Below are positions 1,100 through 64,000 of a DNA stretch of 64,000 nucleotides, in pieces (positions within the stretch are counted from its first letter, which is position 1; each line of letters opens with the position of its first letter). Source of the stretch: Selaginella tamariscina (taxonomy: Eukaryota; Streptophyta; Lycopodiopsida; Selaginellales; Selaginellaceae). Under the pieces are notes generated by a model. It saw only the letters and a program-made list of their open reading frames with translations. It did not search any database and had not been told where the DNA came from. The DNA is taken from assembly GCA_003024785.1 (NCBI GenBank), contig PUQB01000094.1, positions 285,249 through 349,248 of the forward strand, in the 5' to 3' direction. The translations under genes and the position numbers were made by a program.

Positions 1100-2673
1100 C
1101 CCCTCATTTCGATTACATGTTTATGGAACCATTCCATACCCAAACAAAGTCAAACCCTGTCATATTCAAGACAACTAAGTCTAGCTTATAGCCTTCCAAT
1201 CTTTAATTTGGATAGGAACTGCCCTTGCTATATTATTAGTATTTTGAGAACCTTTGTCAAAATTGATTTTTATTTCACACATCTTTATTACATCCAAATT
1301 CAACCGACGAGCTAGACTAGTCAATATGAAGTTGTATGTTGCTCCAGTATCGATCATCATTCAAACTCGGTCCCCTCGTATCCTTCCTGTCAAATATAAC
1401 AAAAGATCAGTTTTGTCTTGAATAGCGAATAAGGCAGGTTGTGTCTGGCACAACATTACCTCCTCTGACTCATCTTCTGGATCTTCATGCGTTTCTGGTT
1501 CAGCAACTTCCTCTTCTACCATCGCCTTGAAATGACCCGATTGTTGTGAGGGTGCCGACATTCTCTAGCAAAATGACCAGGCTTGTTACAAATGTGACAT
1601 GTACGAACCTCACCTGCGTATTGCGAGGGAGCAGACTTTGGAGCCGATCCTTGGCCTGCTGAGGAGGTGGTACGCTAACGGCTTTCAAGATCCGATGGGT
1701 CTAATGTATCTGAAAATTTGGAACTACCAACGAAGGAACTTGCACTTTGATTTGAAGGTGACTGATTCGGTCGTCTATCAATCTTCTAAACCCAGACTTT
1801 GGAAGAAAACTCTTCGGTTTGGTTTTGCTTCCTCCCTTTTGTACAAGTCTCTAACGACATGCCATAAGCAACCTTTTGAGCTGCCTCTTGACATTCTCGA
1901 TAGCTTGTTGGCTTGTACCTTAAGATTTCCCTTTGGCGTCTTCTCATTCAAGCTAGCCATGAAGCAACTTGAGCTTCATCATTGCTCATATTTGACACCA
2001 ATCGTTGTACACTCTCGAATCGATAAACGTGGTCCATTGACTTTCCCGAACTCCCTATTGACAAAGTGCCAGGTCAACACGCAATCGCAAACCGAGATCA
2101 TCCAGCATATACTGCTTTTTGATCTCCTTTTTCATGTGTTTCCAGCTGTTTTGGTATCCATGTTCACCTTTAACAATTCGCCACCAAGTCTTAGCTTCTT
2201 CTTTAAGAAATTGCTTGGACATGCAACCTTTTTGTCTTTCTCATGGACAGCCTCAAAATAGCTTTCCATATCATACAACCAGTCATCCAAAACCTTGTAA
2301 ATCCTTTGAACCCATGAAATTCAAAGGCTTTACTGGTTTGAATTTACTGGGACCTCTACCACCTACTTCGTCAAAGAATCTAATTCAAAGGAACCTGACT
2401 TTGAGTCATGCTTCTTCTTCTTTTTCCGTGTGTCTGCTTGAGAAACATCTGGCACTGTAGTATTCGTCGGAATCCAAACGGCAACATTATCAATTTGGTC
2501 ATTCAACCCCAAAATCCCCTCGAAGTTCGTTTAGGGCATCCATCATTATTTTTTGCCAACCAGGTCGTTGTCTAACTCTAGGGTCGACCTGGATCATCCT
2601 CATCCATCTCCTCATTTTGAGCCTCTACGATAGCCCTCTCTGCCTCAGGCTCTAGTTGCTTTCTTTTGTTCAT
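1100..2673 (-). pseudogene. H copy 1 gag and protease (broken)
   Basis: The likely gag ATG is at 2671-2673; its first residues (MNKRKQLEPEAERA) are shared with the plus-strand copy near 63725. A CX2CX4HX4C zinc knuckle (CHICNKPGHFAREC) reads at about 1558-1610, followed by an acidic linker. The aspartic protease motif DTGATYNFILTSLARR lies near 1310-1355. The order gag-PR-RT is normal for Ty3/gypsy. Early stops, including one about 30 codons after the ATG, show decay. Several plus-strand open frames over this interval look like shadows. Confidence 0.8.
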
Positions 2674-2976
2674 CGTATTGAACCCTAGTGTCAACACTCA
2701 GAGAATATGCTTGGAATATTCCCAATGTGAAACTGGAAACACCCTGCACAGGTTGTACACCCACACACATCAGCTTAAACCAGCATAAGACTTTCGGACA
2801 TACCTAGAATTTCACGCCGACTCACTGAGCAAGTGTTCTCCGAAGTTTGACAACTCATATGATCAAACTCTCTACACAGAATACAGACATGTCAATCGAA
2901 AGCAATAGAGTATAGAGTTATCTAATCATTGAAACACCCTACAACTTAAGGCAGTCCTACTGACCGCAGAGAACTT

Positions 2977-2988
2977 GCTCTGATACCA
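2977..2988 (-). promoter_or_regulatory. H copy 1 primer binding site (tRNA-iMet type)
   Basis: The minus strand reads TGGTATCAGAGC, the standard plant initiator-Met PBS, 2 nt inside the LTR end at 2991. This marks 2991 as the inner edge of the 5' LTR and contrasts with the non-TGG primer sites of elements A, B and the TRIM. Confidence 0.9.
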
Positions 2989-2990
2989 AT

Positions 2991-3193
2991 TGTCAGAGTT
3001 TTTACCTGGTGCCACAAAGGCAGCTTGCTAGGCCAACCTTGGAATCCCTTTTGGAAACCCCACAAAATCTAGTAAAATAATCATATTAGGACCCAAGCCC
3101 TAGGAACTCAAACCCCTAGCTGACTAAGTCCACGAACGAGACTCACCTTGTGAATCAGGATACACTGACTAGCCAAGCTTTAGGTGTCATTCC
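2991..3193 (-). repeat. H copy 1 5' LTR, inner (U5) fragment
   Basis: This is the 3' part of the H LTR on the minus strand, ending CTCTGACA. It aligns with 62761-62958 of the plus-strand copy. It is cut at 3193 by element A; the last five bases, ATTCC (3189-3193), are one copy of A's target-site duplication. Confidence 0.9.
3189..3193. repeat. Target site duplication of element A, left (ATTCC)
   Basis: ATTCC precedes the LTR terminus at 3194 and recurs at 9599-9603 just outside the other end. The uninterrupted H copy near 62750 carries this pentamer once (as GGAAT). Confidence 0.95.
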
Positions 3194-3835
3194 TGTCAAG
3201 CCAAATCCAGGAAACAGGAGAGAGCAGGATTCCAAGGACATGAAGGCTTGACTCAGGAACAGGACCGAGAGCAGGACAGGAACCAGGAATAGGAACAGGA
3301 CGGATCTAGGAGTAGGACAGGATTAGGATAGGATCCGGGAGCAAGACAGGAAAGCACAGGATAGGATCCGGGAGCAAAACAGGAACAGGACAGGATCCCG
3401 GAGCAGGACAGGATCCAGGAACAGGACAGGAAATAGGAGCGAGACAGGAACAGGACAGGAAACAAGACAAGACAAGATTGATCGTAGTAAGACTGGTGTT
3501 GATAGTAACTGATTGTACAACAATTAGGTCGGAGCTTTTATGCTCACAACTCCAAGAGCTAATCTAGGCATGCATGCAAAAGTGGTTGCATGCATGCAAA
3601 AGTGATTGCATGCATGCAGAGGCTAAGATGAGTCCACATGTCCCTTATCCTCTAGGCATATCCTGTGGCATATCCTGTAGGAATATCCTGCAACCGAATC
3701 CTGTGTCCGGAATCCTGGTAGGAGTATCCTGTAGGAAAATCCTGCAACCCATATCCTGTATCCGGAATCCTGTAGGAAAGTCCTGCAACCCATGTCCTGT
3801 ATCCGGAATCCTGTATTCTGTATCGGGTCGTGACA
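3194..3835 (-). repeat. Element A 3' LTR
   Basis: 642 bp, nearly identical to 8955-9598. On the minus strand it starts TGTCACGACCCG right after the purine tract and ends TTGACA. U3 has three roughly 40-bp tandem units built on ATTCCGGATACAGGA and three GCATGCATGC boxes. R-U5 is a pyrimidine-rich CCTGT leader. Short open frames inside it, such as one rich in LSCS/LFLD, are low-complexity artefacts. Confidence 0.95.
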
Positions 3836-3846
3836 GCACCTCCTCC

Positions 3847-6800
3847 CTAAAGACGAGTTCCACGAGTCTTGGGACCTGGTTTAGCAGGATAATGCCGATG
3901 GAAGGCAGCAACCTTGGAAGAAGCATGGAGTAAGTTGGATGCAGGTTCCCAAGTGCGATCAGTAGGCAGGTACCCTTTCCAATCCACCAAGTATTGGAGT
4001 TGGTGACGATGAAGACGAGAGTCAAGGATGGCTGCGACTTCGTACTCAGGTTCCGTGTCAATGACCACAGGAGGGGGAGGAGAAGAAACACGACCAGGAA
4101 GAGAAGAAGGATGATACGGCTCCAACAAAGAGGTGTGAAACACAGGATGAAGTTTCACCGTGGATGGTAACTCGAGTCGGAAAGCTACAGGATTTACCTC
4201 CGCCACGATCCTATAAGGGCCCAATCGTTGAAAATCCAACTTAGAAGAAGGCCTGTTGGTGCGAATGTGTCGACGAAGAAGCCACACGAGATCACCAATC
4301 TTGTATGCAGGTGCCGGCTGTCGGTGAGCATCAGCATGATGCTTGTATCGTTCCTGTGCCTGTTGAAGATGAACCTGGAGATCATCCTGTACCTGCCGAA
4401 GATGCTGAAGACGATCCTGTACTGCAGGAGCGGAAGAAGGAGAAGCGGTAGGAGCAAAGTCAAAACGTGGATGGTGGCCTGTAAGAGCAAAGAAAGGTGT
4501 CTGTCCTGTAGATGCGTGGATGGAGTTGTTGTAGGCAAACTCTGCCATTGGAAGGAGGTCCAACCAGTTGTCCTGCTGGTAACTGATGAAGCAACGAAGA
4601 TACTGTTCTAAGGTCTGAATTGTGCGTTCGGACTGCCCATCGGTTTGTGGGTGATATCCTGAAGAAAGATCCGCTTTGACCTGTAGACTCCGAAGAAGCT
4701 CTCGCCAAAACTTGGACATGAATTGTGGACCTCGATCGGAAACAATGCTCTCAGGAAGACCATGATGTCGGAACACCTCGCGGATCACCAACTCGGCAGT
4801 TGTCTGACCTGTAGCTGTCTTGTTGCAGGGTAGGAAATGAGCCTGCTTGGTGAAACGGTCAACCACCACAAGAACTGCATCAAATCCACGGGAAGGAGGA
4901 AGATCTGTGAGGAAATCCATAGAAATGGATCTCCAAGGAGCAGACGGAACAGGAAGAGGACGAAGAAGACCAGAGGGTGCATGATGAGGCATCTTCGACC
5001 TGCTACAAGTGTCACAACTCCGTACAAACCTCTCCACAAAACCTCGCAACCCAGGCCACCAATAGTTGCGAGTCACCAATTCCACTGTCTTGGCCACACC
5101 AAAATGTCCTGTAGCCGGGGTATCATGACAATCCTGTACCACACGAGTCCTAGAAATACCAACAGGAACGTACAGGAGACCTTCCCGGTACAGGAGTCCA
5201 TCCTGTATGGTGAATAGGTTGTAGTCTGGACGGGAACTGGAGGAAGAGGAACTTGCAACGTCAGGATGAATGTGTGAGAACACATTCTTTCCCAAGTCGT
5301 CTGTAGGCAACTGCGAACGAACGTCCTGTAGGAGTGTTGAATTTGCTGGAGCCTGATGAACCTGCAGTGCCGCAAGCCGGAAACGATCAGGACCCAACAA
5401 CACTTGCCTTTGACCGTCAAATGCAGGATCGCCCGGGCTTGGTGCAAGGTAAGAGCGCCTAGACAATGCGTCCGCCTTGCCATTCCGAAAGCCGGGCCTG
5501 TAGACGATGACGAAGTCAAAACGTGATAGGAACTCTGCCCACCTAGCCTGTCGCCGACTGAGGACCCGAGCCGTTTGAAAGTACTCCAGGTTCTTGTGAT
5601 CCGTAAGAACTTGTACAGGATGTGCAGCACCTTCCAGGAAATGCCGCCATTCCTCAAACGAATCCACAATGGCCTTGAGTTCCTTGTCATGAATCTCGTA
5701 GTTGATCTCCGCCGACAGGAACTTACGAGAGTGAAAGGCTACAGGATGAAGCAACTTGTCCTCTCCAACTTGCGATAGGACGGATCCTACTGCAAAATCC
5801 GAGGCATCTGCTTCAATGAAGAAAGGATGAGAAGGGTCAGGATGTGCTAAAATCGGAGCTGTCGTGAAAACGTCCTTGAGTGTTGTGAACGCGTGTTCCG
5901 CCTTGTCGGACCAAGAGAAAAGTCCTGTGCGCTTGGTGAGTTCTGTGAGTGGAAGTACACGCTTGGAGAAGTCCTGTATGAACCGCCTGTAGAAGTTTGC
6001 AAAGCCAAGGAAACATTGTACATCTCGTACCGACTTGGGCCTCTCCCACTCCACGATGGTCTTCACCTTGTGCATGTCCATGGAAACGCCAGCAGGAGAG
6101 ACGATGTAGCCCAAGAACTCCACCGAATCCCTATCGAAAAAACACTTCTCCAACTTCGCGTACAGGCCATGCTCGCGAAGCCGCTCTAAAACTAGTCGTA
6201 CATGCTTGTCATGTGCCGCCTGGTCCTTGGAGAAAATCAAGATGTCGTCGAGGTAGATCACCACAAACTGGTCCAAGAAGTCACGGAAAATGTCGTTCAC
6301 CATGTGTTGGAATACAGCTGGGGCATTGGTAAGGCCGAAAGGCATTACCGTGTACTCAAAATGTCCATACCTTGTACGAAAGGCAGTCTTCCACTCATCG
6401 CCGGGACGAATCCGTACAAGGTTGTAGGCTCCTCGTAAGTCGATCTTCGTGAACACCTTTGCCCCTCGCAGCCGATCGAGAAGTTCCGGGATCAATGGCA
6501 ACGGATACCGATTCCGAATGGTGACTTGATTCAAACCCCTGTAGTCCACCACCAAACGTAAACTCCCATCCTTCTTCTTGACAAAGAAGATAGGAGCTCC
6601 TGCAGGGGACTTTGAGTGACGAATGAAGCCGGATCCTAAGTTGTCCTCGATGTATTGACGAAGAACCTCCAACTCTGTGGGTGACAATGCATAGATCGGT
6701 CCGAATGGTGGAGTCTTTCCTTCCGCAAGATCAATAGGACAGTCGTAGGACCTGTGAACAGGAAGAACTGCAGCCTTGTGCTTGTCAAAAACGTCCTTAA

Positions 6801-7872
6801 AGTCGTGGTACTTGGATGGTAGGGAAGAAGGAGGAGAAGGAGAAGGAGAAGGAGAAAAAACAGGGGAGTCGGATACAGGAAAGGTAGGAGAGGACGTAGG
6901 AGTTACTTGAAAAGCAAAAAGGTGGAAGGGGGCAGGATCAGTGGCGAGTTCATGCATGGTAGTGGTAAGAACTCGGAGAGGAGAAGGAGGGAGCTGTGAC
7001 TGAAAAAGAGGAAGGATCTTGGGGGATGGAACAGAGGCAGGGTAACAGAAAGAAGCAGGATTGGAAAAAACCTGTGTGGTTGTTGATGAGTGTACAGGAT
7101 TGGAAGAATCCTGTACAGGACACCGTGAGTGTACAGGATTGGAAGAATCCTGTACAGGAGTCCGTGGTTGCGCAAGAGTGGAAGAAGCCTGCGAATGTGC
7201 TGACGAATCAACAGGAGGTGGATCCTGTTGAGGAGGAACCTTCGACACTGATACAGGATTGGAAGAACCCTGTACAGGACACCGCAAACTTACAGGAATG
7301 GGGAGAGCCTGCGGATGTGCTGAGGAACTGCCATGAGGTGAATCCTGTCGAGGAGGAGTCTTCAACACTGGTACAGGAACAGGTACGGTCAATCCTGTAG
7401 CTTGTACTGCCTCAGATACTAAGGATGTATCCTGCACGCAGGAAGGTACAGGATTGATCCTAGAAGTTGGAGAGGAAAACGTGAGTGTCCTAGACCTCCA
7501 GTCGATCTGCGGATTTGCAACAACGAACCATGGCATGCCCAAAATGATGGGAGTCGACCGAGTCTTGATCAAGTTGAAGGAAATTGAACAGTTGAATGTG
7601 CCATACCTGCAGGAGAGAGGTTCGGTAGCATGGGTAACTGCACCGGAAGCAATTAGACGCCCATCGGCCACCTCTACAGGAACTGCACGCTTCAACTTCA
7701 CCACCGAAATGCCATGTTGAGTTGCAAACGTGTCATCCATGAAGCATGCATTTGCACCAGTGTCTAACAAGGCAAACTCCATGAGCTCTCGATTATTAAG
7801 ATGAATGTGTACAGGAAACTTAAGTGACGGGATGGTATGAGCAGCACCAATGGAGCCTGCACCTACGTCCAA
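3847..7872 (-). CDS. pol: Element A pol polyprotein (PR-RT-RNaseH-IN-chromodomain)
   Basis: 1341 aa from a TTG at 7872; the frame is really entered from gag, being open back to just before the gag stop. Domains by residue: protease DTGA near 36; a Pro/Ser linker with repeated VQDSSNPV near 200-290; RT about 390-570 with YLDD near 540; RNase H about 680-800 (EADAS, TDHKN); integrase HHCC zinc site 915-960 and DDE core with D near 985 (SMDFLTD), D near 1045 (SDRGPQF), E near 1080 (GQSERT). Then comes a GPY/F module near 1220 (LGPYRIV) and a chromodomain 1275-1320 with the aromatic cage (EYEVAAIL, YLVDWKGY, RTWEP). Together these cover maturation, reverse transcription and chromatin-guided integration. 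There are no internal stops, so this copy may be competent. Confidence 0.95.
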   Translation of the reverse strand: MDVGAGSIGAAHTIPSLKFPVHIHLNNRELMEFALLDTGANACFMDDTFATQHGISVVKLKRAVPVEVADGRLIASGAVTHATEPLSCRYGTFNCSISFNLIKTRSTPIILGMPWFVVANPQIDWRSRTLTFSSPTSRINPVPSCVQDTSLVSEAVQATGLTVPVPVPVLKTPPRQDSPHGSSSAHPQALPIPVSLRCPVQGSSNPVSVSKVPPQQDPPPVDSSAHSQASSTLAQPRTPVQDSSNPVHSRCPVQDSSNPVHSSTTTQVFSNPASFCYPASVPSPKILPLFQSQLPPSPLRVLTTTMHELATDPAPFHLFAFQVTPTSSPTFPVSDSPVFSPSPSPSPPSSLPSKYHDFKDVFDKHKAAVLPVHRSYDCPIDLAEGKTPPFGPIYALSPTELEVLRQYIEDNLGSGFIRHSKSPAGAPIFFVKKKDGSLRLVVDYRGLNQVTIRNRYPLPLIPELLDRLRGAKVFTKIDLRGAYNLVRIRPGDEWKTAFRTRYGHFEYTVMPFGLTNAPAVFQHMVNDIFRDFLDQFVVIYLDDILIFSKDQAAHDKHVRLVLERLREHGLYAKLEKCFFDRDSVEFLGYIVSPAGVSMDMHKVKTIVEWERPKSVRDVQCFLGFANFYRRFIQDFSKRVLPLTELTKRTGLFSWSDKAEHAFTTLKDVFTTAPILAHPDPSHPFFIEADASDFAVGSVLSQVGEDKLLHPVAFHSRKFLSAEINYEIHDKELKAIVDSFEEWRHFLEGAAHPVQVLTDHKNLEYFQTARVLSRRQARWAEFLSRFDFVIVYRPGFRNGKADALSRRSYLAPSPGDPAFDGQRQVLLGPDRFRLAALQVHQAPANSTLLQDVRSQLPTDDLGKNVFSHIHPDVASSSSSSSRPDYNLFTIQDGLLYREGLLYVPVGISRTRVVQDCHDTPATGHFGVAKTVELVTRNYWWPGLRGFVERFVRSCDTCSRSKMPHHAPSGLLRPLPVPSAPWRSISMDFLTDLPPSRGFDAVLVVVDRFTKQAHFLPCNKTATGQTTAELVIREVFRHHGLPESIVSDRGPQFMSKFWRELLRSLQVKADLSSGYHPQTDGQSERTIQTLEQYLRCFISYQQDNWLDLLPMAEFAYNNSIHASTGQTPFFALTGHHPRFDFAPTASPSSAPAVQDRLQHLRQVQDDLQVHLQQAQERYKHHADAHRQPAPAYKIGDLVWLLRRHIRTNRPSSKLDFQRLGPYRIVAEVNPVAFRLELPSTVKLHPVFHTSLLEPYHPSSLPGRVSSPPPPVVIDTEPEYEVAAILDSRLHRHQLQYLVDWKGYLPTDRTWEPASNLLHASSKVAAFHRHYPAKPGPKTRGTRL

Positions 7873-7883
7873 CTTCGCGGCTC

Positions 7884-8861
7884 CTAGACGAAGTGGACAT
7901 TGGAGTTTTCCGACTGAACTTCGGCTTCGACTTCACGCGTCTTGAAGTTCCTGGCTTTAATAGGACAATCTGCCACCTTGTGTCCTGCTCCACCACAATA
8001 CAAGCACAGGTTCTCACTGCGACGACGTTGCTTCTCGGCAGCGGAAAGAGAGCCACGCTTGGATTTCTCAACCTCCATAGGAACTACTCCAGAAGGTGGT
8101 GCAGGAACATGTACCACAGCTGTAGGATTGGTTTGCAGGAACTGTTGACGGGATCTTTCCTGACGACGCTCGAACAAACGGTTGTCGCAACGAACAGCTT
8201 GTTGCATGATCTCCGCTAATGTTTGGGCATCCGGTAACGTAAGGAGAAGGTCCTTCACGTCGTCCCTCAACCCAAAACGGAAGTGTTCGATCAATGCAGT
8301 CTCGTCCCATGGAATGTTCGTGCAAAGTTGCTGAAATTCGGATGCATAGACGGAAGCTGGTCGGGATCCTTGAGTGAGCTTCCGTAACTTCGTGCATGCA
8401 GAACGGTACTTATCAGGATCTCCAAAACAGGCTTCAAAGGCAGCCACGAAACCTTCAAAGTCTTCCATCAGTGGATCGTCACGCTCCAGCAAGGGGGCAA
8501 CCCAAGCCCGTGGAGATCCACTTAGTAAGGATGCCAAAAGACCCACCTTTTGAGCATCAGTCGAGTAGCGCCGTGGTTGCATACGGATCAAGAGTCGGAT
8601 CTGATTCAGGAAACCTTGGAAATCGGCACGATTACCACTGAACTTCTCTGGCATGCTAACCTTCGGCTCCGAAGAAAAGTTTGATGAAGAGGAAACCACC
8701 GATGCCTGGGAGAGAGCCTGCGCAGCAGCCTTGGAGGATGCATCAGCAGCTGCATGTGCCGCAGTGGTGGAACCTTGCAGGTCGGTGACCACTTGGCGCA
8801 AAGTGGCCAGCTCATGAAGTAGCATTTGGTGCTCGTGTTGAAAATGCTCAAAATCAGCCAT
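7884..8861 (-). CDS. gag: Element A gag (capsid and nucleocapsid)
   Basis: 325 aa starting ATG at 8861, about 80 nt downstream of the PBS. The N-terminus has a heptad-rich helical stretch and an Ala-rich linker (residues 10-65). The capsid core begins at PEKFSGNRADFQGFLNQI and continues through LASLLSGSPRAWVAPLLERDD and FEACFGDPDKY, the retrotransposon-gag fold also seen in vertebrate sushi-type and fungal elements. A CCHC knuckle (CLYCGGAGHKVADC) lies near 290-304. It would form the particle and bind RNA. Its stop is followed by pol in the -1 frame; the two frames overlap by about 49 nt. Confidence 0.95.
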   Translation of the reverse strand: MADFEHFQHEHQMLLHELATLRQVVTDLQGSTTAAHAAADASSKAAAQALSQASVVSSSSNFSSEPKVSMPEKFSGNRADFQGFLNQIRLLIRMQPRRYSTDAQKVGLLASLLSGSPRAWVAPLLERDDPLMEDFEGFVAAFEACFGDPDKYRSACTKLRKLTQGSRPASVYASEFQQLCTNIPWDETALIEHFRFGLRDDVKDLLLTLPDAQTLAEIMQQAVRCDNRLFERRQERSRQQFLQTNPTAVVHVPAPPSGVVPMEVEKSKRGSLSAAEKQRRRSENLCLYCGGAGHKVADCPIKARNFKTREVEAEVQSENSNVHFV

Positions 8862-8939
8862 GATCTAGGAAAGAAAAAAGGAGGAAAATGAAGGAAAGGA
8901 ATCAAGAAAAAGGTAGCTGGAAAACGGAGAACTATGAAG

Positions 8940-8954
8940 CAGTTACTATCAAAC
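8940..8954 (-). promoter_or_regulatory. Element A primer binding site, self-complementary type
   Basis: Directly inside the 5' LTR (ends 8955) the minus strand reads GTTTGATAGTAACTG. There is no TGG, so no tRNA 3' CCA can pair. Its last 11 nt are the exact complement of CAGTTACTATC in the element's own LTR (9264-9274), about 27-30 nt downstream of the TATA-like box at 9299-9304. Confidence 0.75.
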
Positions 8955-9598
8955 TGTCAAGCCACGATCCAGGAAACAGGAAGAGAGCAGGATTCCAAGG
9001 ACATGAAGGCTTGACTCAGGAACAGGACCGAGAGCAGGACAGGAACCAGGAATAGGAACAGGACGGATCTAGGAGTAGGACAGGATTAGGATAGGATCCG
9101 GGAGCAAGACAGGAAAGCACAGGATAGGATCCGGGAGCAAAACAGGAACAGGACAGGATCCCGGAGCAGGACAGGATCCAGGAACAGGACAGGAAATAGG
9201 AGCGAGACAGGAACAGGACAGGAAACAAGACAAGACAAGATTGATCGTAGTAAGACTGGTGTTGATAGTAACTGATTGTACAACAATTAGGTCGGAGCTT
9301 TTATGCTCACAACTCCAAGAGCTAATCTAGGCATGCATGCAAAAGTGGTTGCATGCATGCAAAAGTGATTGCATGCATGCAGAGGCTAAGATGAGTCCAC
9401 ATGTCCCTTATCCTCTAGGCATATCCTGTGGCATATCCTGTAGGAATATCCTGCAACCGAATCCTGTGTCCGGAATCCTGGTAGGAGTATCCTGTAGGAA
9501 AATCCTGCAACCCATATCCTGTATCCGGAATCCTGTAGGAAAGTCCTGCAACCCATGTCCTGTATCCGGAATCCTGTATTCTGTATCGGGTCGTGACA
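8955..9598 (-). repeat. Element A 5' LTR
   Basis: 644 bp. On the minus strand the order is: TGTCACGACC; three roughly 40-bp U3 repeats; three RY boxes; ATAAAA (9299-9304); predicted R start at 9274 (CAGTTACTATC); a pyrimidine-rich leader with many CCTGT units; and the end TTGACA. It differs from the 3' LTR mainly by small changes in the last 30 bp. Confidence 0.95.
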
Positions 9599-9603
9599 AT
9601 TCC
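9599..9603. repeat. Target site duplication of element A, right (ATTCC)
   Basis: Matches 3189-3193. The H LTR sequence continues immediately after it. Confidence 0.95.
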
Positions 9604-10346
9604 TAGCTTGGCGTGGTTGAGGCGGCTGGAGGCAAGGCCTCAACCACTAGTTTTTGCGGAACGTGAACTCGAGCAATGCCTTTGAGCTTGCAGACAGGTT
9701 TTCGGACCAAGGAATCTGACTAACTCCTTGGAAGTGATGTCCCCTATCTCAAAGGCAAGATCCTACAAATGATAAGGATAGTCTAACCCTAGGTGGGTTG
9801 TACCCTGCCGTGTGGAAGTTTGGGCGGCACAATGGAGGGTTGCACCTTGACGACACAAGCTTAGCTTGCACCGGTAGGAGGTTAATGAGCTCTCTTTTGA
9901 ACCCAGGAAGCCTCACTACATATACTCTACCTTATTTATGTGCGGACCCCCCCCCCCCTATTTACCTAAGTGAGTAATGTGGGCTAGCACGGAAATGCTA
10001 GCCCTTAGAGAAAATAGTTGTCCTAACCTAACCCCTAGGGGGGGGGTTTAGGGCGTGGGGTTAGGTCAACCCTAGGGTGTCCCTAACCCTTATTTTGACA
10101 AGCTATACTTTGCAAAGAACCCTAACCTAAAACGTCAAACCATAGGAGAGTTTCTAGAAGGTAAGTTCTAGCTTCGCATAGAGTTTCCTGCAAATACCTA
10201 ATGTCACCCGACCGGACAGCCACTAGATACCCAAGTGCACTAAACGGCTTGTTTCCTACTACATCTAGGGTTCGTCACACAACTCGGTAAGTAACAACAG
10301 TCAAACCCCAAAGTAAAGGGTCGAGTCATAGTAAAAAACTGTGACA
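9604..10346 (-). repeat. H copy 1 5' LTR, outer (U3-R) fragment
   Basis: This continues the H LTR beyond insertion A. The minus strand starts TGTCACAG at 10346 and matches 61999-62760 of the other copy almost base for base in places (ACTATGACTCGACCC, TTTGGGGTTTGACTG). It includes a 13-nt C run near 9947-9959 and a G-rich run near 10039. The combined LTR length of about 946 bp agrees with the 960 bp of the other copy. Confidence 0.9.
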
Positions 10347-11832: not shown

Positions 11833-12050
11833 TGTCACGACCCGATACAAAATACAGGATTCCGGATACAGGACATGGTTGCAGGACTTTCCTACAGGAT
11901 TCCGGATATAGGATATGGGTTGCAGGATTTTCCTACAGGATACTCCTACCAGGGATTCCGGACACAGGATTCGGTTGCAGGATATTCCTACAGGATATGC
12001 CACAGGATATGCCTAGAGGATAAGGGACATGTGGACTCATCTTAGCCTCT

Positions 12051-12132
12051 GCATGCATGCAATCACTTTTGCATGCATGCAACCACTTTTGCATGCATGC
12101 CTAGATTAGCTCTTGGAGTTGTGAGCATAAAA
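12051..12132 (+). promoter_or_regulatory. Element B LTR promoter: three RY boxes and TATA-like box
   Basis: GCATGCATGC occurs at 12051-12060, 12071-12080 and 12091-12100, exactly 20 bp apart. The separators are near identical (AAYCACTTTT). CATGCATG is the RY element bound by plant B3 factors of the ABI3/FUS3/LEC2 type. ATAAAA follows at 12127-12132, about 30 bp before the predicted start at 12157. The same module is in the other LTRs of A and B. Binding is inferred from the motif only. Confidence 0.65.
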
Positions 12133-12156
12133 GCTCCGACCTAATTGTTGTACAAT

Positions 12157-12170
12157 CAGTTACTATCAAC
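12157..12170 (+). promoter_or_regulatory. Predicted transcript 5' end (R start) able to pair with the PBS
   Basis: CAGTTACTATCAAC begins about 29 bp after the TATA-like box. Its first 11 nt are the exact reverse complement of 12481-12491. In Tf1 the first 11 nt of the mRNA pair with the PBS and serve as primer; this arrangement is the same. The start site is inferred, not mapped. Confidence 0.65.
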
Positions 12171-12476
12171 ACCAGTCTTACTACGATCAATCTTGTCTTG
12201 TCTTGTTTCCTGTCCTGTTCCTGTCTCGCTCCTATTTCCTGTCCTGTTCCTGGATCCTGTCCTGCTCCGGGATCCTGTCCTGTTCCTGTTTTGCTCCCGG
12301 ATCCTATCCTGTGCTTTCCTGTCTTGCTCCCGGATCCTATCCTAATCCTGTCCTACTCCTAGATCCGTCCTGTTCCTATTCCTGGTTCCTGTCCTGCTCT
12401 CGGTCCTGTTCCTGAGTCAAGCCTTCATGTCCTTGGAATCCTGCTCTCTTCCTGTTTCCTGGATCGTGGCTTGACA

Positions 12477-12491
12477 GTTTGATAGTAACTG
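12477..12491 (+). promoter_or_regulatory. Element B primer binding site, self-complementary type
   Basis: GTTTGATAGTAACTG directly follows the LTR. GATAGTAACTG (12481-12491) is complementary to 12157-12167. Three further bases pair if one T is bulged. It does not start with TGG, unlike the PBS of element H in the same window. Confidence 0.75.
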
Positions 12492-12569
12492 CTTCATAGT
12501 TCTCCGTTTTCCAGCTACCTTTTTCTTGATTCCTTTCCTTCATTTTCCTCCTTTTTTCTTTCCTAGATC

Positions 12570-13538
12570 ATGGCTGATTTTGAGCATTTTCAACACGAGC
12601 ACCAAATGCTACTTCATGAGCTGGCCACTTTGCGCCAAGTGGTCACCGACCTGCAAGGTTCCACCACTGCGGCACATGCAGCTGCTGATGCATCCTCCAA
12701 GGCTGCTGCGCAGGCTCTCTCCCAGGCATCGGTGGTTTCCTCTTCATCAAACTTTTCTTCGGAGCCGAAGGTTAGCATGCCAGAGAAGTTCAGTGGTAAT
12801 CGTGCCGATTTCCAAGGTTTCCTGAATCAGATCCGACTCTTGATCCGTATGCAACCACGGCGCTACTCGACTGATGCTCAAAAGGTGGGTCTTTTGGCAT
12901 CCTTACTAAGTGGATCTCCACGGGCTTGGGTTGCCCCCTTGCTGGAGCGTGACGATCCACTGATGGAAGACTTTGAAGGTTTCGTGGCTGCCTTTGAAGC
13001 CTGTTTTGGAGATCCTGATAAGTACCGTTCTGCATGCACGAAGTTACGGAAGCTCACTCAAGGATCCCGACCAGCTTCCGTCTATGCATCCGAATTTCAG
13101 CAACTTTGCACGAACATTCCATGGGACGAGACTGCATTGATCGAACACTTCCGTTTTGGGTTGAGGGACGACGTGAAGGACCTTCTCCTTACGTTACCGG
13201 ATGCCCAAACATTAGCGGAGATAGCTGTTCGTTGCGACAACCGTTTGTTCGAGCGTCGTCAGGAAAGATCCCGTCAACAGTTCCTGCAAACCAATCCTAC
13301 AGCTGTGGTACATGTTCCTGCACCACCTTCTGGAGTAGTTCCTATGGAGGTTGAGAAATCCAAGCGTGGCTCTCTTTCCGCTGCCGAGAAGCAACGTCGT
13401 CGCAGTGAGAACCTGTGCTTGTATTGTGGTGGAGCAGGACACAAGGTGGCAGATTGTCCTATTAAAGCCAGGAACTTCAAGACGCGTGAAGTCGAAGCCG
13501 AAGTTCAGTCGGAAAACTCCAATGTCCACTTCGTCTAG
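12570..13538 (+). CDS. gag: Element B gag
   Basis: 322 aa, open from ATG to TAG and the same as element A gag except for loss of three residues (a 9-nt deletion after DAQTLAEI). Capsid core FSGNRADFQGFLNQI and CCHC knuckle CLYCGGAGHKVADC are present. The gag stop at 13536-13538 lies inside the upstream-open pol frame. The deletion lies in the C-terminal capsid region upstream of the knuckle; its effect on assembly is unknown. Confidence 0.93.
   Translation: MADFEHFQHEHQMLLHELATLRQVVTDLQGSTTAAHAAADASSKAAAQALSQASVVSSSSNFSSEPKVSMPEKFSGNRADFQGFLNQIRLLIRMQPRRYSTDAQKVGLLASLLSGSPRAWVAPLLERDDPLMEDFEGFVAAFEACFGDPDKYRSACTKLRKLTQGSRPASVYASEFQQLCTNIPWDETALIEHFRFGLRDDVKDLLLTLPDAQTLAEIAVRCDNRLFERRQERSRQQFLQTNPTAVVHVPAPPSGVVPMEVEKSKRGSLSAAEKQRRRSENLCLYCGGAGHKVADCPIKARNFKTREVEAEVQSENSNVHFV
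13490..13538 (+). promoter_or_regulatory. gag-pol overlap, candidate -1 frameshift window
   Basis: The pol frame is -1 relative to gag and is open from 13490, right after a TGA, to beyond the gag stop at 13538. Any -1 ribosomal shift must occur in these 49 nt. The best heptamer is GGAAAAC at 13511-13517 (in gag frame G GAA AAC), which is not a canonical X XXY YYZ site. The mechanism is therefore unproven. Confidence 0.4.
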
Positions 13539-13549
13539 GAGCCGCGAAG

Positions 13550-16500
13550 TTGGACGTAGGTGCAGGCTCCATTGGTGCTGCTCATACCATCCCGTCACTT
13601 AAGTTTCCTGTACACATTCATCTTAATAATCGAGAGCTCATGGAGTTTGCCTTGTTAGACACTGGTGCAAATGCATGCTTCATGGATGACACGTTTGCAA
13701 CTCAACATGGCATTTCGGTGGTGAAGTTGAAGCGTGCAGTTCCTGTAGAGGTGGCCGATGGGCGTCTAATTGCTTCCGGTGCAGTTACCCATGCTACCGA
13801 ACCTCTCTCCTGCAGGTATGGCACATTCAACTGTTCAATTTCCTTCAACTTGATCAAGACTCGGTCGACTCCCATCATTTTGGGCATGCCATGGTTCGTT
13901 GTTGCAAATCCGCAGATCGACTGGAGGTCTAGGACACTCACGTTTTCCTCTCCAACTTCTAGGATCAATCCTGTACCTTCCTGCGTGCAGGATACATCCT
14001 TAGTATCTGAGGCAGTACAAGCTACAGGATTGACCGTACCTGTTCCTGTACCAGTGTTGAAGACTCCTCCTCGACAGGATTCACCTCATGGCAGTTCCTC
14101 AGCACATCCGCAGGCTCTCCCCATTCCTGTAAGTTTGCGGTGTCCTGTACAGGGTTCTTCCAATCCTGTATCAGTGTCGAAGGTTCCTCCTCAACAGGAT
14201 CCACCTCCTGTTGATTCGTCAGCACATTCGCAGGCTTCTTCCACTCTTGCGCAACCACGGACTCCTGTACAGGATTCTTCCAATCCTGTACACTCACGGT
14301 GTCCTGTACAGGATTCTTCCAATCCTGTACACTCATCAACCACACAGGTTTTTTCCAATCCTGCTTCTTTCTGTTACCCTGCCTCTGTTCCATCCCCCAA
14401 GATCCTTCCTCTTTTTCAGTCACAGCTCCCTCCTTCTCCTCTCCGAGTTCTTACCACTACCATGCATGAACTCGCCACTGATCCTGCCCCCTTCCACCTT
14501 TTTGCTTTTCAAGTAACTCCTACGTCCTCTCCTACCTTTCCTGTATCCGACTCCCCTGTTTTTTCTCCTTCTCCTTCTCCTTCTCCTCCTTCTTCCCTAC
14601 CATCCAAGTACCACGACTTTAAGGACGTTTTTGACAAGCACAAGGCTGCAGTTCTTCCTGTTCACAGGTCCTACGACTGTCCTATTGATCTTGCGGAAGG
14701 AAAGACTCCACCATTCGGACCGATCTATGCATTGTCACCCACAGAGTTGGAGGTTCTTCGTCAATACATCGAGGACAACTTAGGATCCGGCTTCATTCGT
14801 CACTCAAAGTCCCCTGCAGGAGCTCCTATCTTCTTTGTCAAGAAGAAGGATGGGAGTTTACGTTTGGTGGTGGACTACAGGGGTTTGAATCAAGTCACCA
14901 TTCGGAATCGGTATCCGTTGCCATTGATCCCGGAACTTCTCGATCGGCTGCGAGGGGCAAAGGTGTTCACGAAGATCGACTTACGAGGAGCCTACAACCT
15001 TGTACGGATTCGTCCCGGCGATGAGTGGAAGACTGCCTTTCGTACAAGGTATGGACATTTTGAGTACACGGTAATGCCTTTCGGCCTTACCAATGCCCCA
15101 GCTGTATTCCAACACATGGTGAACGACATTTTCCGTGACTTCTTGGACCAGTTTGTGGTGATCTACCTCGACGACATCTTGATTTTCTCCAAGGACCAGG
15201 CGGCACATGACAAGCATGTACGACTAGTTTTAGAGCGGCTTCGCGAGCATGGCCTGTACGCGAAGTTGGAGAAGTGTTTTTTCGATAGGGATTCGGTGGA
15301 GTTCTTGGGCTACATCGTCTCTCCTGCTGGCGTTTCCATGGACATGCACAAGGTGAAGACCATCGTGGAGTGGGAGAGGCCCAAGTCGGTACGAGATGTA
15401 CAATGTTTCCTTGGCTTTGCAAACTTCTACAGGCGGTTCATACAGGACTTCTCCAAGCGTGTACTTCCACTCACAGAACTCACCAAGCGCACAGGACTTT
15501 TCTCTTGGTCCGACAAGGCGGAACACGCGTTCACAACACTCAAGGACGTTTTCACGACAGCTCCGATTTTAGCACATCCTGACCCTTCTCATCCTTTCTT
15601 CATTGAAGCAGATGCCTCGGATTTTGCAGTAGGATCCGTCCTATCGCAAGTTGGAGAGGACAAGTTGCTTCATCCTGTAGCCTTTCACTCTCGTAAGTTC
15701 CTGTCGGCGGAGATCAACTACGAGATTCATGACAAGGAACTCAAGGCCATTGTGGATTCGTTTGAGGAATGGCGGCATTTCCTGGAAGGTGCTGCACATC
15801 CTGTACAAGTTCTTACGGATCACAAGAACCTGGAGTACTTTCAAACGGCTCGGGTCCTCAGTCGGCGACAGGCTAGGTGGGCAGAGTTCCTATCACGTTT
15901 TGACTTCGTCATCGTCTACAGGCCCGGCTTTCGGAATGGCAAGGCGGACGCATTGTCTAGGCGCTCTTACCTTGCACCAAGCCCGGGCGATCCTGCATTT
16001 GACGGTCAAAGGCAAGTGTTGTTGGGTCCTGATCGTTTCCGGCTTGCGGCACTGCAGGTTCATCAGGCTCCAGCAAATTCAACACTCCTACAGGACGTTC
16101 GTTCGCAGTTGCCTACAGACGACTTGGGAAAGAATGTGTTCTCACACATTCATCCTGACGTTGCAAGTTCCTCTTCCTCCAGTTCCCGTCCAGACTACAA
16201 CCTATTCACCATACAGGATGGACTCCTGTACCGGGAAGGTCTCCTGTACGTTCCTGTTGGTATTTCTAGGACTCGTGTGGTACAGGATTGTCATGATACC
16301 CCGGCTACAGGACATTTTGGTGTGGCCAAGACAGTGGAATTGGTGACTCGCAACTATTGGTGGCCTGGGTTGCGAGGTTTTGTGGAGAGTTTGTACGGAG
16401 TTGTGACACTTGTAGCAGGTCGAAGATGCCTCATCATGCACCCTCTGGTCTTCTTCGTCCTCTTCCTGTTCCGTCTGCTCCTTGGAGATCCATTTCTATG

Positions 16501-17571
16501 GATTTCCTCACAGATCTTCCTCCTTCCCGTGGATTTGATGCAGTTCTTGTGGTGGTTGACCGTTTCACCAAGCAGGCTCATTTCCTACCCTGCAACAAGA
16601 CAGCTACAGGTCAGACAACTGCCGAGTTGGTGATCCGCGAGGTGTTCCGACATCATGGTCTTCCTGAGAGCATTGTTTCCGATCGAGGTCCACAATTCAT
16701 GTCCAAGTTTTGGCGAGAGCTTCTTCGGAGTCTACAGGTCAAAGCGGATCTTTCTTCAGGATATCACCCACAAACCGATGGGCAGTCCGAACGCACAATT
16801 CAGACCTTAGAACAGTATCTTCGTTGCTTCATCAGTTACCAGCAGGACAACTGGTTGGACCTCCTTCCAATGGCAGAGTTTGCCTACAACAACTCCATCC
16901 ACGCATCTACAGGACAGACACCTTTCTTTGCTCTTACAGGCCACCATCCACGTTTTGACTTTGCTCCTACCGCTTCTCCTTCTTCCGCTCCTGCAGTACA
17001 GGATCGTCTTCAGCATCTTCGGCAGGTACAGGATGATCTCCAGGTTCATCTTCAACAGGCACAGGAACGATACAAGCATCATGCTGATGCTCACCGACAG
17101 CCGGCACCTGCATACAAGATTGGTGATCTCGTGTGGCTTCTTCGTCGACACATTCGCACCAACAGGCCTTCTTCTAAGTTGGATTTTCAACGATTGGGCC
17201 CTTATAGGATCGTGGCGGAGGTAAATCCTGTAGCTTTCCGACTCGAGTTACCATCCACGGTGAAACTTCATCCTGTGTTTCACACCTCTTTGTTGGAGCC
17301 GTATCATCCTTCTTCTCTTCCTGGTCGTGTTTCTTCTCCTCCCCCTCCTGTGGTCATTGACACGGAACCTGAGTACGAAGTCGCAGCCATCCTTGACTCT
17401 CGTCTTCATCGTCACCAACTCCAATACTTGGTGGATTGGAAAGGGTACCTGCCTACTGATCGCACTTGGGAACCTGCATCCAACTTACTCCATGCTTCTT
17501 CCAAGGTTGCTGCCTTCCATCGGCATTATCCTGCTAAACCAGGTCCCAAGACTCGTGGAACTCGTCTTTAG
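13550..17571 (+). pseudogene. pol: Element B pol, broken by a 1-nt deletion
   Basis: Same domain order as element A pol. The first frame (13550-16633) carries protease, RT with YLDD and RNase H through to the integrase zinc region. A single G is missing near 16388-16400 compared with element A, shifting the frame just after NYWWPGLRGFVE. The second frame (16357-17571) carries the HHCC cysteines, the DDE core, GPY/F and the chromodomain. Integrase would therefore not be made in frame from this copy. All other key residues are unchanged. Confidence 0.93.
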
Positions 17572-17582
17572 GGAGGAGGTGC
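17571..17582 (+). promoter_or_regulatory. Element B polypurine tract
   Basis: GGGAGGAGGTGC abuts the 3' LTR start TGTCACGAC and overlaps the pol stop codon by one base. It would prime plus-strand DNA synthesis. The TRIM at 63239-63702 has nearly the same junction. Confidence 0.85.
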
Positions 17583-18218
17583 TGTCACGACCCGATACAG
17601 AATACAGGATTCCGGATACAGGACATGGGTTGCAGGACTTTCCTACAGGATTCCGGATACAGGATATGGGTTGCAGGATTTTCCTACAGGATACTCCTAC
17701 CAGGATTCCGGACACAGGATTCGGTTGCAGGATATTCCTACAGGATATATGCCTAGAGGATAAGGGACATGTGGACTCATCTTAGCCTCTGCATGCATGC
17801 AATCACTTTTGCATGCATGCAACCACTTTTGCATGCATGCCTAGATTAGCTCTTGGAGTTGTGAGCATAAAAGCTCCGACCTAATTGTTGTACAATCAGT
17901 TACTATCAACACCAGTCTTACTACGATCAATCTTGTCTTGTCTTGTTTCCTGTCCTGTTCCTGTCTCGCTCCTATTTCCTGTCCTGTTCCTGGATCCTGT
18001 CCTGCTCCGGGATCCTGTCCTGTTCCTGTTTTGCTCCCGGATCCTATCCTGTGCTTTCCTGTCTTGCTCCCGGATCCTATCCTAATCCTGTCCTACTCCT
18101 AGATCCGTCCTGTTCCTATTCCTGGTTCCTGTCCTGCTCTCGGTCCTGTTCCTGAGTCAAGCCTTCATGTCCTTGGAATCCTGCTCTCTTCCTGTTTCCT
18201 GGATCGTGGCTTGACCCA
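17583..18218 (+). repeat. Element B 3' LTR
   Basis: 636 bp. It lacks about 10 bp of the U3 segment near 17750 and ends TTGACCCA rather than TTGACA. The end is fixed by the TSD GGGCC at 18219-18223. RY boxes, the TATA-like box and the CAGTTACTATC start (17897-17907) are retained. Confidence 0.92.
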
Positions 18219-61998: not shown

Positions 61999-62958
61999 TG
62001 TCATAGTTTTTACTATGACTCGACCCTTTACTTTGGGGTTTGACTGTTGTTACCTACCGAGTTGTGTGGCAACCCTAGTTGTAGTGAGAAACAGCCCCGC
62101 TTAGTGCACTTAGGTGTTTAGGGGTAGTCCGGTCGGCTGTCACTAGGTACTCAAGAAACTCTAGGCGAAGGTAGTACTTACCCTCTAGAAAACTCTCCCC
62201 CAGTTTGACGTTACAAAAGATAGGTTTTCCGTTAAATATAGCTTGTCAAAAAGGGTTAGGGACACCCCTAGGGTTGACCTAACCCACGCCCTAATACCCC
62301 CCTAGGGGTTAGGTTTAGGTTAGGTTAGGACAACCATTTTCTCTAAGGGCTGGCATTTTCGTGCCATCCCACTTACTCATTTAGGTAAACAGGGGGGGGG
62401 GGGTCCGTCACACAAATAAGGTAGAGTATATGTAGTGAGGCTTCCTGGGTTCAAGAGAGAGCTCGTTAACCTCCTATCGGTGCAAGCTAAGCTTGTGTCG
62501 TCAAGGTGCAACTCTCCGTTGTGCCGCCCAAACTTCCACACGACAGGGGTACAACCCACCCTAGGGTTAGACTATCCTTATCGTTTGGTAGGATCTTGCC
62601 TTTGAGATAGGGGCACGTCACTTCCAAGGAGTTAATCAGATTCCTTTATCTGAAAACCTGCCCGCAAGCTCAAAGATATTGCCCGAGTTCACATTCCGCA
62701 AAACTAGTAGTTGAGGCCTTGCTCCGGCCGCCTCAACCACGCCAAGCTAGGAATGACACCTAAAGCTCAGCTAGTCCGTGTATCCTGATTCACAAGGTGA
62801 GTCTCGTTTGTGGACTTAGTCAACTAGGGGTTTGACTTCCTAAGGCTTGGGTTCCTAATACGGGTTACTTTACCAGGTTCTGTGGGTTTCCAAGAGGGGG
62901 GATTCCAGGGTTGGCACCTGGCAAGCCGCCTTTGTGGCACCAGGTAAAAACTCTGATA
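61999..62958 (+). repeat. H copy 2 5' LTR (uninterrupted)
   Basis: 960 bp, TGTCATAG...CTCTGATA (CA end mutated to TA). Collinear with the split LTR of copy 1. It includes a 13-nt G run near 62390-62402. At about 62750 it contains GGAAT once, the empty site corresponding to insertion A. Confidence 0.9.
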
Positions 62959-62960
62959 AT

Positions 62961-62972
62961 TGGTATCGGAGC
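62961..62972 (+). promoter_or_regulatory. H copy 2 primer binding site
   Basis: TGGTATCGGAGC, one change from the iMet PBS, 2 nt after the LTR. Confidence 0.85.
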
Positions 62973-63233
62973 AAGTTCTTTGCGGTCAATAGGACTGCCT
63001 TAAGTCGTAGGGTGTTTCAATGTTTAGATAACTTTAAATTCTTGATATACTCTATTGCTTTCGGTTGACATGTCTGTATTCTGCAGAAAGAGTTTGATCC
63101 TGTGAGTTGTCAAACTTTGGAGAACACTTGCTCAGTGAGTCGGTATTCTAGGTATGTCCAAAAGTCTTATGCTAGTTTAAGCTGATGTGTGTGGGTGTAC
63201 AACTTGTGCAGGGGGTTTCCAGTGTTGACACTA

Positions 63234-63238
63234 GGGTT
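63234..63238. repeat. TRIM target site duplication, left (GGGTT)
   Basis: GGGTT; repeated at 63703-63707. Copy 1 of H has the uninterrupted site (ACTAGGGTTCAATAC) near 2680. Confidence 0.92.
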
Positions 63239-63563
63239 TGTCACGTTCCAGGGATTTGAACCCCTACCTCTGGAGTAGTAGGCGTGACTTTGGACCAAAA
63301 GGCCACATTGATCAGGATGACACCTAACCACGCTCCAGACCTAGTATAGTACGTGTGTCGTGACACCACCTCCCCCTCGGCCCTTTCTCGGGTGGAACTA
63401 CTGGGGATACCAGTAGGCCAGGGGAGGTCAGAATGACCACTAGCCCGGCCAAGGTGTCAACACATACTAGGGCCCCCAACCCTATTACGAATTGCCTAGG
63501 TTTTTGTTACACATACTAGGGCCCCCAACCCTATTACGAATTGCCTAGGTTTTGTTGACCTAA

Positions 63564-63578
63564 GTCATCCTGATCAAT
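63564..63578 (-). promoter_or_regulatory. TRIM primer binding site, complementary to its own LTR
   Basis: The minus strand reads ATTGATCAGGATGAC one base inside the 5' LTR. Its exact complement GTCATCCTGATCAAT lies in the LTR at 63649-63663 (minus strand). There is no TGG start, so a tRNA primer is unlikely. Confidence 0.65.
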
Positions 63579-63592
63579 CTGTCACGTTCCAG

Positions 63593-63663
63593 GGATTCGA
63601 ACCCCCTACCTCTGGAGTAGTAGGCGTGACTTTGGACCAAAAGGCCACATTGATCAGGATGAC
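63593..63663 (-). promoter_or_regulatory. Candidate polymerase III promoter in the TRIM LTR
   Basis: Minus strand: box B GGTTCGAATCC (63593-63603) is a perfect consensus. Box A-like TGGCCTTTTGG (63637-63647) starts 44 nt upstream of it, a tRNA-like spacing. The sequence complementary to the PBS starts at 63663, 16 nt before box A, where polymerase III would be expected to initiate. Caveats: box A is imperfect and includes TTTT, which can terminate polymerase III. The other LTR has a damaged box B (GGTTCAAATCC). Confidence 0.45.
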
Positions 63664-63707
63664 ACCTAACCACGCTCCAGACCTAGTACGTGTGTCGTGA
63701 CAGGGTT

Positions 63708-64000
63708 CAATACAATGAGTAAGAAGAAAGCAACTAGAGCCTGAGGCAGAGAGGGCTGTCGAGAGGCTCAAAATGAGGAGATGGATGAGGCTGATCCAGG
63801 TCGACCCCCTAGAGTTAGACAACGACCTGGTTGGCGAGAAATAATGATGGATGCCTAAACGAACTTCGAGGGGATGTTTTGGGTTGAACGACCGAATCGA
63901 TAATGTTGCCGTTCGGATTCCGACGAATACTGCAGTGCCAGATGTTCCGCAACCAGACACACGGAAAAAGAAGAAGAAGCATGACTCAGAGTCAGGTTCC
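63708..64000 (+). pseudogene. H copy 2 gag 5' part (broken)
   Basis: ATG at 63725 followed within ten codons by a stop. The downstream sequence aligns with the minus-strand copy at about 2370-2670 (for example GATGGATGAGG and TCGAGGGGATGTTTTGG). It is cut by the window end. The long minus-strand frame at 63574-63960 is a shadow. Confidence 0.8.

Follow-up and report, generated by a model that had tools for sequence, protein, structure and literature searches.

The minus strand of the window (the whole stretch of 64,000 nt that was analysed) holds a 464-bp TRIM, which probably has a tRNA-Arg-like promoter for Pol III in its LTR and is mobilised in trans by, and self-priming like, the Tf1/sushi-type chromodomain Gypsy element of the same window. 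Its copying probably relies on the enzymes of this larger element and needs no cellular tRNA for priming. Self-priming of the TRIM is, at the level of sequence, well supported. Trans-mobilisation by the Gypsy element is supported by composites of the two elements which share one outer TSD.

Structure, insertion site and copies of the element

The element has a length below 1000 bp, two LTRs, a PBS, a polypurine tract (PPT) and a TSD, and lacks gag-pol, as is characteristic for TRIMs. A plus-strand reading was dropped because PBS, PPT and promoter boxes make sense on the minus strand only. The parts are listed here.

63580..63702, minus strand: 5' LTR, 123 bp, TGTCACG...CGTGACA
63239..63365, minus strand: 3' LTR, 127 bp, with one substitution and two indels relative to the 5' LTR
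63703..63707, plus strand: TSD GGGTT, copy 1, supported by an empty-site paralogue
63234..63238, plus strand: TSD GGGTT, copy 2, supported by the same paralogue
63366..63382, minus strand: polypurine tract GGCCGAGGGGGAGGTGG, abutting the 3' LTR
63460..63556, minus strand: internal direct repeat, two units of about 49 nt
63564..63578, minus strand: PBS ATTGATCAGGATGAC, one base past the 5' LTR
63649..63663, minus strand: LTR 40-54, the complement of the PBS, which would be the 5' end of the RNA and the self-primer
63637..63647, minus strand: box A-like motif TGGCCTTTTGG, LTR 56-66, including TTTT at 63639-63642
63593..63603, minus strand: box B GGTTCGAATCC, LTR 100-110; most family LTRs read GGTTCAAATCC
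63592..63648, minus strand: tRNA-Arg(TCT)-like stretch, LTR 55-111
2380..3200, minus strand: paralogous Gypsy leader without the TRIM

The paralogous leader at 2380-3200 contains a single GGGTT and is therefore the empty site of the TRIM insertion. Pieces of the interrupted Gypsy, which is not the proposed partner, are found at 2390-3194, 9599-10346 and 61999-64000; they carry a PBS-like TTGGTATCGGAGC, presumably of the tRNA-iMet type, and it is the leader of this Gypsy in which the TRIM is inserted. The first-pass annotation, which was made from the sequence alone, had described the 5-bp TSD, LTRs of 123-127 bp and the purine tract, and all three are confirmed on the minus strand. Its statement that the element is non-coding holds down to the cut-off of 150 aa, at or above which no ORF lies within the TRIM. 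A scan of viral contigs gave no match to the TRIM LTR end. Elsewhere in the window, dense direct and palindromic repeats are present at 50.4-52.7 kb and 55.3-55.9 kb.

In the 300.7-Mb assembly (1391 contigs) at least 89 matches to the whole element (40 of 53 candidates scored) and at least 45 matches to the LTR (40 of 91 scored) were identified; since a part of the candidates was scored, these counts are lower bounds. An exact 5-bp TSD flanks 8 of the 16 distinct two-LTR copies, or 7 of 15 if L001 and L002, which have a common TSD and common flanks and are therefore one duplicated insertion, are taken together. The LTR pairs show 44 differences in 1942 sites (0-9 per copy). L015, L016, L017 and L018 have near-identical TRIM plus Gypsy neighbourhoods, two of them at identical coordinates near contig ends (3287-3658 in C527 and C725), and these four stem from duplication or from redundant assembly. 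Pieces of the TRIM LTR and of the internal part also occur in tandem or scrambled arrays (L009, L012, L025, L032, L036, L038, L040), and L027, L028, L033 and L064 are fold-back copies.

Primer pairing and tRNA-like promoter sequence

In this insertion the PBS (63578-63564) is the exact 15-nt complement of LTR 40-54 (63663-63649). Of 20,000 dinucleotide shuffles, none had a 15-nt complement between the LTR and the 25 nt that follow it, and four had one of 12 nt. The perfect complement, which was the starting point of the first-pass annotation, is however a property of this one insertion, since the usual family PBS pairs with the LTR at 14 of 15 positions, 12 of them contiguous, with one C.A mismatch in most copies. 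The 33 distinct LTR-PBS contexts (L001-L050; two are tails outside the standard PBS) read GATTGATCAGGATAAC in 25 cases and GATGAC in one, which is this insertion, and 18 of 19 aligned units are without the pair that completes the 15/15 complement. These 19 come from 22 distinct units; the fold-back copy L028, which is among those left out of the alignment, pairs 15/15.

Due to the mismatch in most copies, the primer that the copies have in common may measure only 12 nt (LTR 43-54). PBSs rewritten to GATGAC would be expected to be commoner than 1 in 33 contexts if the primer had 15 nt. Conservation of the complementarity had been named as decisive, and it is seen for LTR 43-54, intact in 37 of 42 full-length LTRs (L001-L030), not for the full 15 nt. 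Over the 19 distinct aligned units the primer:PBS helix is paired in 91.9% of cells, and 9 of its 15 pairs are invariant. The suggested check for co-variation of LTR and PBS among copies was negative in these 19 units, because the copies are too young and the rows too alike. The predicted fold of the TRIM leader (window copy; -46 kcal/mol, z -3.96) contains the primer:PBS helix with a U5 stem beside it, and the same two parts are found in the predicted fold of the Gypsy leader (window copy; -66.8, z -2.79). After the TRIM LTR ends in L008 and L006/L021, GATTGATCAGGATAC is followed by foreign or shifted sequence, and these are possibly copied primer remnants.

Inverted (fold-back) recombination could leave such a complement as a functionless by-product. 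The existence of L027, L028, L033 and L064 fits with this, as does the observation by eye that the complement runs on loosely, with a gap, to LTR 33-38. Nevertheless such an origin is very improbable, as the complement is located at the PBS position, one base from LTR ends that lead into standard internal sequence, and as the partner Gypsy has unrelated sequence in the same arrangement.

Another primer was looked for as well. Animal and fungal Helenus PBSs match tRNAs, the fungal ones often the anticodon loop (PMC10886601, available text), and a tRNA or half-tRNA might accordingly prime the TRIM as in these known elements, with the LTR complement being incidental or tRNA-derived. The family PBS 21-mer was compared with both strands of the 300.7-Mb genome at up to 3 substitutions, a setting which takes in substitutions only, over the full length of 21 nt. 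It was found in 36 places, of which 29 have no mismatch, 4 have one, 2 have two and 1 has three; a reversed-pattern control gave 1 match. All but one of these places (35/36) lie within or directly beside TRIM matches. The lone outside place (C91, 3 mismatches), the sole PBS-like 21-mer with at least 18/21 outside TRIM places, contains no tRNA according to ARAGORN and no TRIM LTR, and is chance-like. Therefore neither a tRNA gene nor an autonomous element carrying the PBS was found at up to 3/21 substitutions. The host tRNA sample comprises 40 genes (33 distinct) of at least 62 listed, with 63 of 15,756 candidates scored; it covers six anticodons (Asn, Arg-TCT, Arg-TCG, Ile-TAT, Lys, Cys). In these 40 genes the best exact complement to the PBS has 7 nt, while matches of about 12 nt are possible in other tRNAs, such as those for Leu, Ser and iMet. 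Moreover, the PBS begins without TGG, and the mobilising Gypsy is itself self-complementary. We therefore consider a tRNA primer improbable.

The promoter boxes lie as they had been described, box A starting 16 nt past the start of the complementary stretch and box B a further 44 nt downstream. An exact box B arose in 29/20,000 shuffles, and box A alone (up to one mismatch, two motif spacings) in 14,052/20,000, so that box A by itself means little. Both boxes at a distance of 42-46 nt occurred in 0/20,000 shuffles and at 30-75 nt in 5/20,000; with box B given, p for box A is about 0.035 and about 0.28, respectively. What stands out from chance is therefore the complement at the PBS, box B and the distance between the boxes, rather than box A taken by itself. 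Box A of this TRIM has one mismatch to the consensus and is intact in 37 of the 42 full-length LTRs (L001-L030). The box B, which had been called perfect, is exact in this insertion in its G form, whereas the usual family box B has A; the G belongs to this one insertion. As a family trait box B is conserved, with 35 of 42 full-length LTRs fitting GGTTCRANNCC (33 with A, 2 with G), a consensus in which we take both bases to be legal. A second box A-like motif without mismatch, TGGCCTACTGG, is located at 63410-63420 (minus strand, element position 283), 158 nt from the next box B.

LTR 55-111 is colinear with host tRNA-Arg(TCT) over a stretch that begins with GTGGCC and ends with box B, with two 2-nt gaps. 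The alignment score is 42, and 200 mononucleotide shuffles gave at most 29. Among 5,114 stretches of 75 nt from the window the best three are in this LTR pair (42, 39, 37), the 37 being that of the 3' LTR. The next unrelated stretch, near 20675 on the minus strand, scores 36; the tRNA similarity is therefore the best in the window, with a modest margin. Rfam (E up to 10) revealed no tRNA in the TRIM, and ARAGORN none anywhere in the 64,000-nt window. A 5S promoter of the Cassandra type was considered and rejected, as no 5S rRNA family match was found. An upstream GTGGTTAGG, seen by eye as an alternative box A, was dropped because the alignment puts both boxes in the tRNA-Arg register. In this register the complement covers the leader and the 5' acceptor strand, and LTR 40 and LTR 43 correspond to positions -9 and -6 of the tRNA. 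These positions fall in the usual start range of Pol III, and we infer a Pol III start near LTR 40-43. The boxes and the tRNA-Arg similarity thus bear out the first-pass claim of a tRNA-type promoter sequence in the LTR. Its wording that the promoter starts exactly at the self-priming sequence has to be weakened: the pairing stretch is at the expected start of a tRNA promoter, but 'exactly' is not supported in view of the C.A mismatch.

The TTTT in box A, for which caution had been advised, is present in 40 of 42 full-length LTRs, and the caution stands, as this run (LTR 61-64) could stop Pol III. Sense-strand runs of four T occur only in box A of each LTR (element 61-64 and 403-406). Of the 40 host tRNA genes, 15 have exactly four T in their first run of four or more T within 40 nt, 5 have a longer run there and 20 have none. 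If the 3' copy terminated and the 5' copy were somehow read through, an RNA with a short terminal repeat holding the primer would result. The TTTT and the mismatch in box A would both suit a self-priming TRIM that is transcribed by Pol II from a TATA-less promoter and whose tRNA-like stretch survives as an inert relic or serves only to shape U5. The silence of Rfam and the TATA-like box of the partner Gypsy point the same way. We regard Pol II transcription as unlikely, since the boxes have tRNA-like spacing and are intact in 37 (box A) and 35 (box B) of 42 LTRs, though the copies are young, and since only 39-42 bp of LTR lie above the proposed start, with no TATA box seen by eye in the 5' LTR. 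The 3' LTRs of this copy and of L002 have a short extra insertion upstream of the proposed start.

The proposed Gypsy partner and composite loci

The proposed mobilising family is present in the window in two copies.

3194..9598, minus strand: chromodomain Gypsy, LTR TGTCACGAC...TTGACA, purine tract AGGGAGGAGGTGC, TSD GGAAT
11833..18215, plus strand: second, inverted copy, 99.5% identical, about 2.2 kb from the first
9262..9274, minus strand: Gypsy LTR 325-337, CAGTTACTATCAA, predicted RNA 5' end and self-primer
9298..9305, minus strand: TATA-like CATAAAAG, about 30 nt above the predicted RNA start
8940..8952, minus strand: Gypsy PBS TTGATAGTAACTG, two bases past the LTR, complementary to 9262-9274

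This Gypsy encodes RT, RNase H, integrase, a Tf2-1-like SH3 domain and a chromodomain, and by its pol, chromodomain and SH3 domain content it is assigned to the Tf1/sushi-type chromoviruses. It has in common with the TRIM the LTR start TGTCACGAC, the LTR end GACA, GGAGGTG in the purine tract, which in the Gypsy ends GGAGGTGC, and the 5-bp TSD. The PBSs of the two elements are unrelated and each is matched to its own LTR, which can be read as covariation between families (n=2).

The TRIM and this Gypsy family occur together in 14 of 42 loci (L001-L042). One of these, L007, is nested and has a TSD of its own; L015-L018 represent one arrangement, L034 and L035 have a common outer flank, L020 is ambiguous, and the far end of L008 is outside the comparison. 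In seven composites the five bases preceding the Gypsy 5' LTR were compared by eye with the five that follow the distal end of the TRIM. One outer TSD was found in four of them, namely C682 (AAAGC, where the match follows an irregular LTR end), C670 (ATGGT), C1237 (AAGTT) and C489 (TCAAG), and no shared TSD in C488, C1348 and C572. The chance of a 5-bp match is about 1 in 1,000 per composite. One duplication across both elements indicates that the cDNAs of the TRIM and of the Gypsy were linked to each other prior to integration and inserted together. Such composites are genomic evidence of a mobilising partner.

The Gypsy LTR end is followed in the composites by GT, the two spacer bases before the Gypsy PBS, which fits first-strand synthesis from the PBS. 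The exception is C1237, in which the Gypsy LTR is truncated; in the Gypsy copy of the window the TSD follows directly after the LTR. Three loci have junctions near the proposed RNA start. In L064 an inverted internal part runs into the LTR at G40; in L028 this junction falls within the 12-nt pairing stretch, and in L018 the TRIM starts near LTR 45, joined to a Gypsy LTR end. These would fit the products expected if the cDNA ended near LTR 40-46, but homology-driven switching also explains the junctions of L064 and L028. Other TRIM truncations are at LTR 9, 11, 36, 54, 59/60, 76, 78 and 96.

Taken as a self-priming element with a Pol III promoter, the TRIM would be copied as follows. The tRNA-like boxes of the 5' LTR would recruit TFIIIC and Pol III, and the RNA would start near LTR 40-43. 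Its first 12-15 nt, for which the pairing is seen, would fold back onto the PBS beside the LTR and close the U5 stem. The folded 5' end would then be cut into a primer as in Tf1, the partner RT would copy the TRIM RNA, and the partner integrase would insert the product with a 5-bp duplication. The TRIM would thus keep the priming layout of the Gypsy with its own primer/PBS pair, a tRNA promoter replacing the TATA box. It is tempting to go further and to regard the promoter as a primer-making device: the TRIM would have swapped the Gypsy TATA box for a tRNA-Arg promoter, whose Pol III start at LTR 40-43 makes an exact PBS-pairing 5' end, and the small Pol III RNA would prime its own reverse transcription in the partner's particles. 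We propose this only tentatively and are not quite persuaded of it.

Comparison with known systems

Helenus elements are TRIMs of 311-1263 bp with tRNA-derived sequence in the LTR (Kojima 2024, PMC10886601, available text). Because LTR 55-111 resembles host tRNA-Arg(TCT), the present element is a TRIM of the Helenus kind and a candidate TRIMp3. The tRNA-derived sequence by which Helenus is defined is found in LTR 55-111 by alignment (score 42), with Rfam and ARAGORN silent, and the TRGCY and YGG of box A are present, as is the GGTTC of box B. With Helenus/TRIMp3 it shares the short length, the tRNA-derived LTR part, both boxes, PBS and PPT, and with fungal and plant Helenus the 5-bp TSD (PMC10886601). 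Animal and fungal families are described with tRNA primers, and a complement of the tRNA-like part in the PBS was not found (PMC10886601, available text). In contrast, the stretch of the LTR that pairs with the PBS here lies directly upstream of the tRNA-like part and overlaps its start, and the complementarity to a tRNA reported for Helenus was not found (genome at up to 3/21 substitutions; 40 tRNA genes). Fungal Helenus is linked to Copia and animal Helenus to Gypsy (PMC10886601); the present TRIM goes with a chromodomain Gypsy.

Tf1 RNA anneals to the PBS by its first 11 nt (PMC7175516). Self-priming was predicted by Neumann et al. for most plant Tcn1 elements (PMC6317226), while for SM-Tcn1 of Selaginella neither kind of priming was found to be supported (PMC2864245, available text). 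As in Tf1/sushi and Tcn1 elements, the PBS of the TRIM is complementary to the predicted RNA 5' end and the partner is a chromodomain Gypsy (PMC7175516, PMC6317226). The PBS/LTR pairing of the window Gypsy, about 30 nt below a TATA-like box, is the arrangement of Tf1 (PMC7175516). Unlike the autonomous Tf1 and Tcn1, the TRIM is a non-coding element of 0.4 kb with a tRNA-type promoter.

The U5 stem, known in Tf1, is common to Tf1 and the predicted TRIM folds. Cassandra elements are TRIMs with a 5S (Pol III) promoter in the LTR. Like these, the present TRIM has a Pol III-type promoter sequence in the LTR, and tandem LTR/internal arrays are also found; it differs in having no 5S rRNA match, and a tRNA-like promoter with a self-complementary PBS instead. 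Evidence of a mobilising partner is described as lacking for Cassandra (PMC10886601, available text). A paper on a bivalve TRIM discusses self-priming elements and, as far as available, gives no clear mechanism for its own TRIM (PMC6934838). No TRIM was found in Physcomitrella according to Gao et al. (PMC4717578, available text).

No self-primed TRIM was found among the top matches listed from the open-licence full-text literature. If our reading is true, this would be the first one found within that scope, and the first link of a Pol III promoter to a reverse-transcription primer. It would also explain in a simple way how an element that has no genes can use Tf1-type machinery without sharing its PBS, and elements recorded so far as 'PBS not found' would merit a second look for pairing of LTR and PBS above box A. 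The first-pass annotation knew of no described TRIM combining tRNA-type promoter and self-priming. TRIMs with a tRNA promoter have been described (PMC10886601, available text), whereas their combination with self-priming looks new. With its tRNA-like LTR and self-pairing PBS the element is therefore of the Helenus kind by its LTR and Tf1-like by its PBS.
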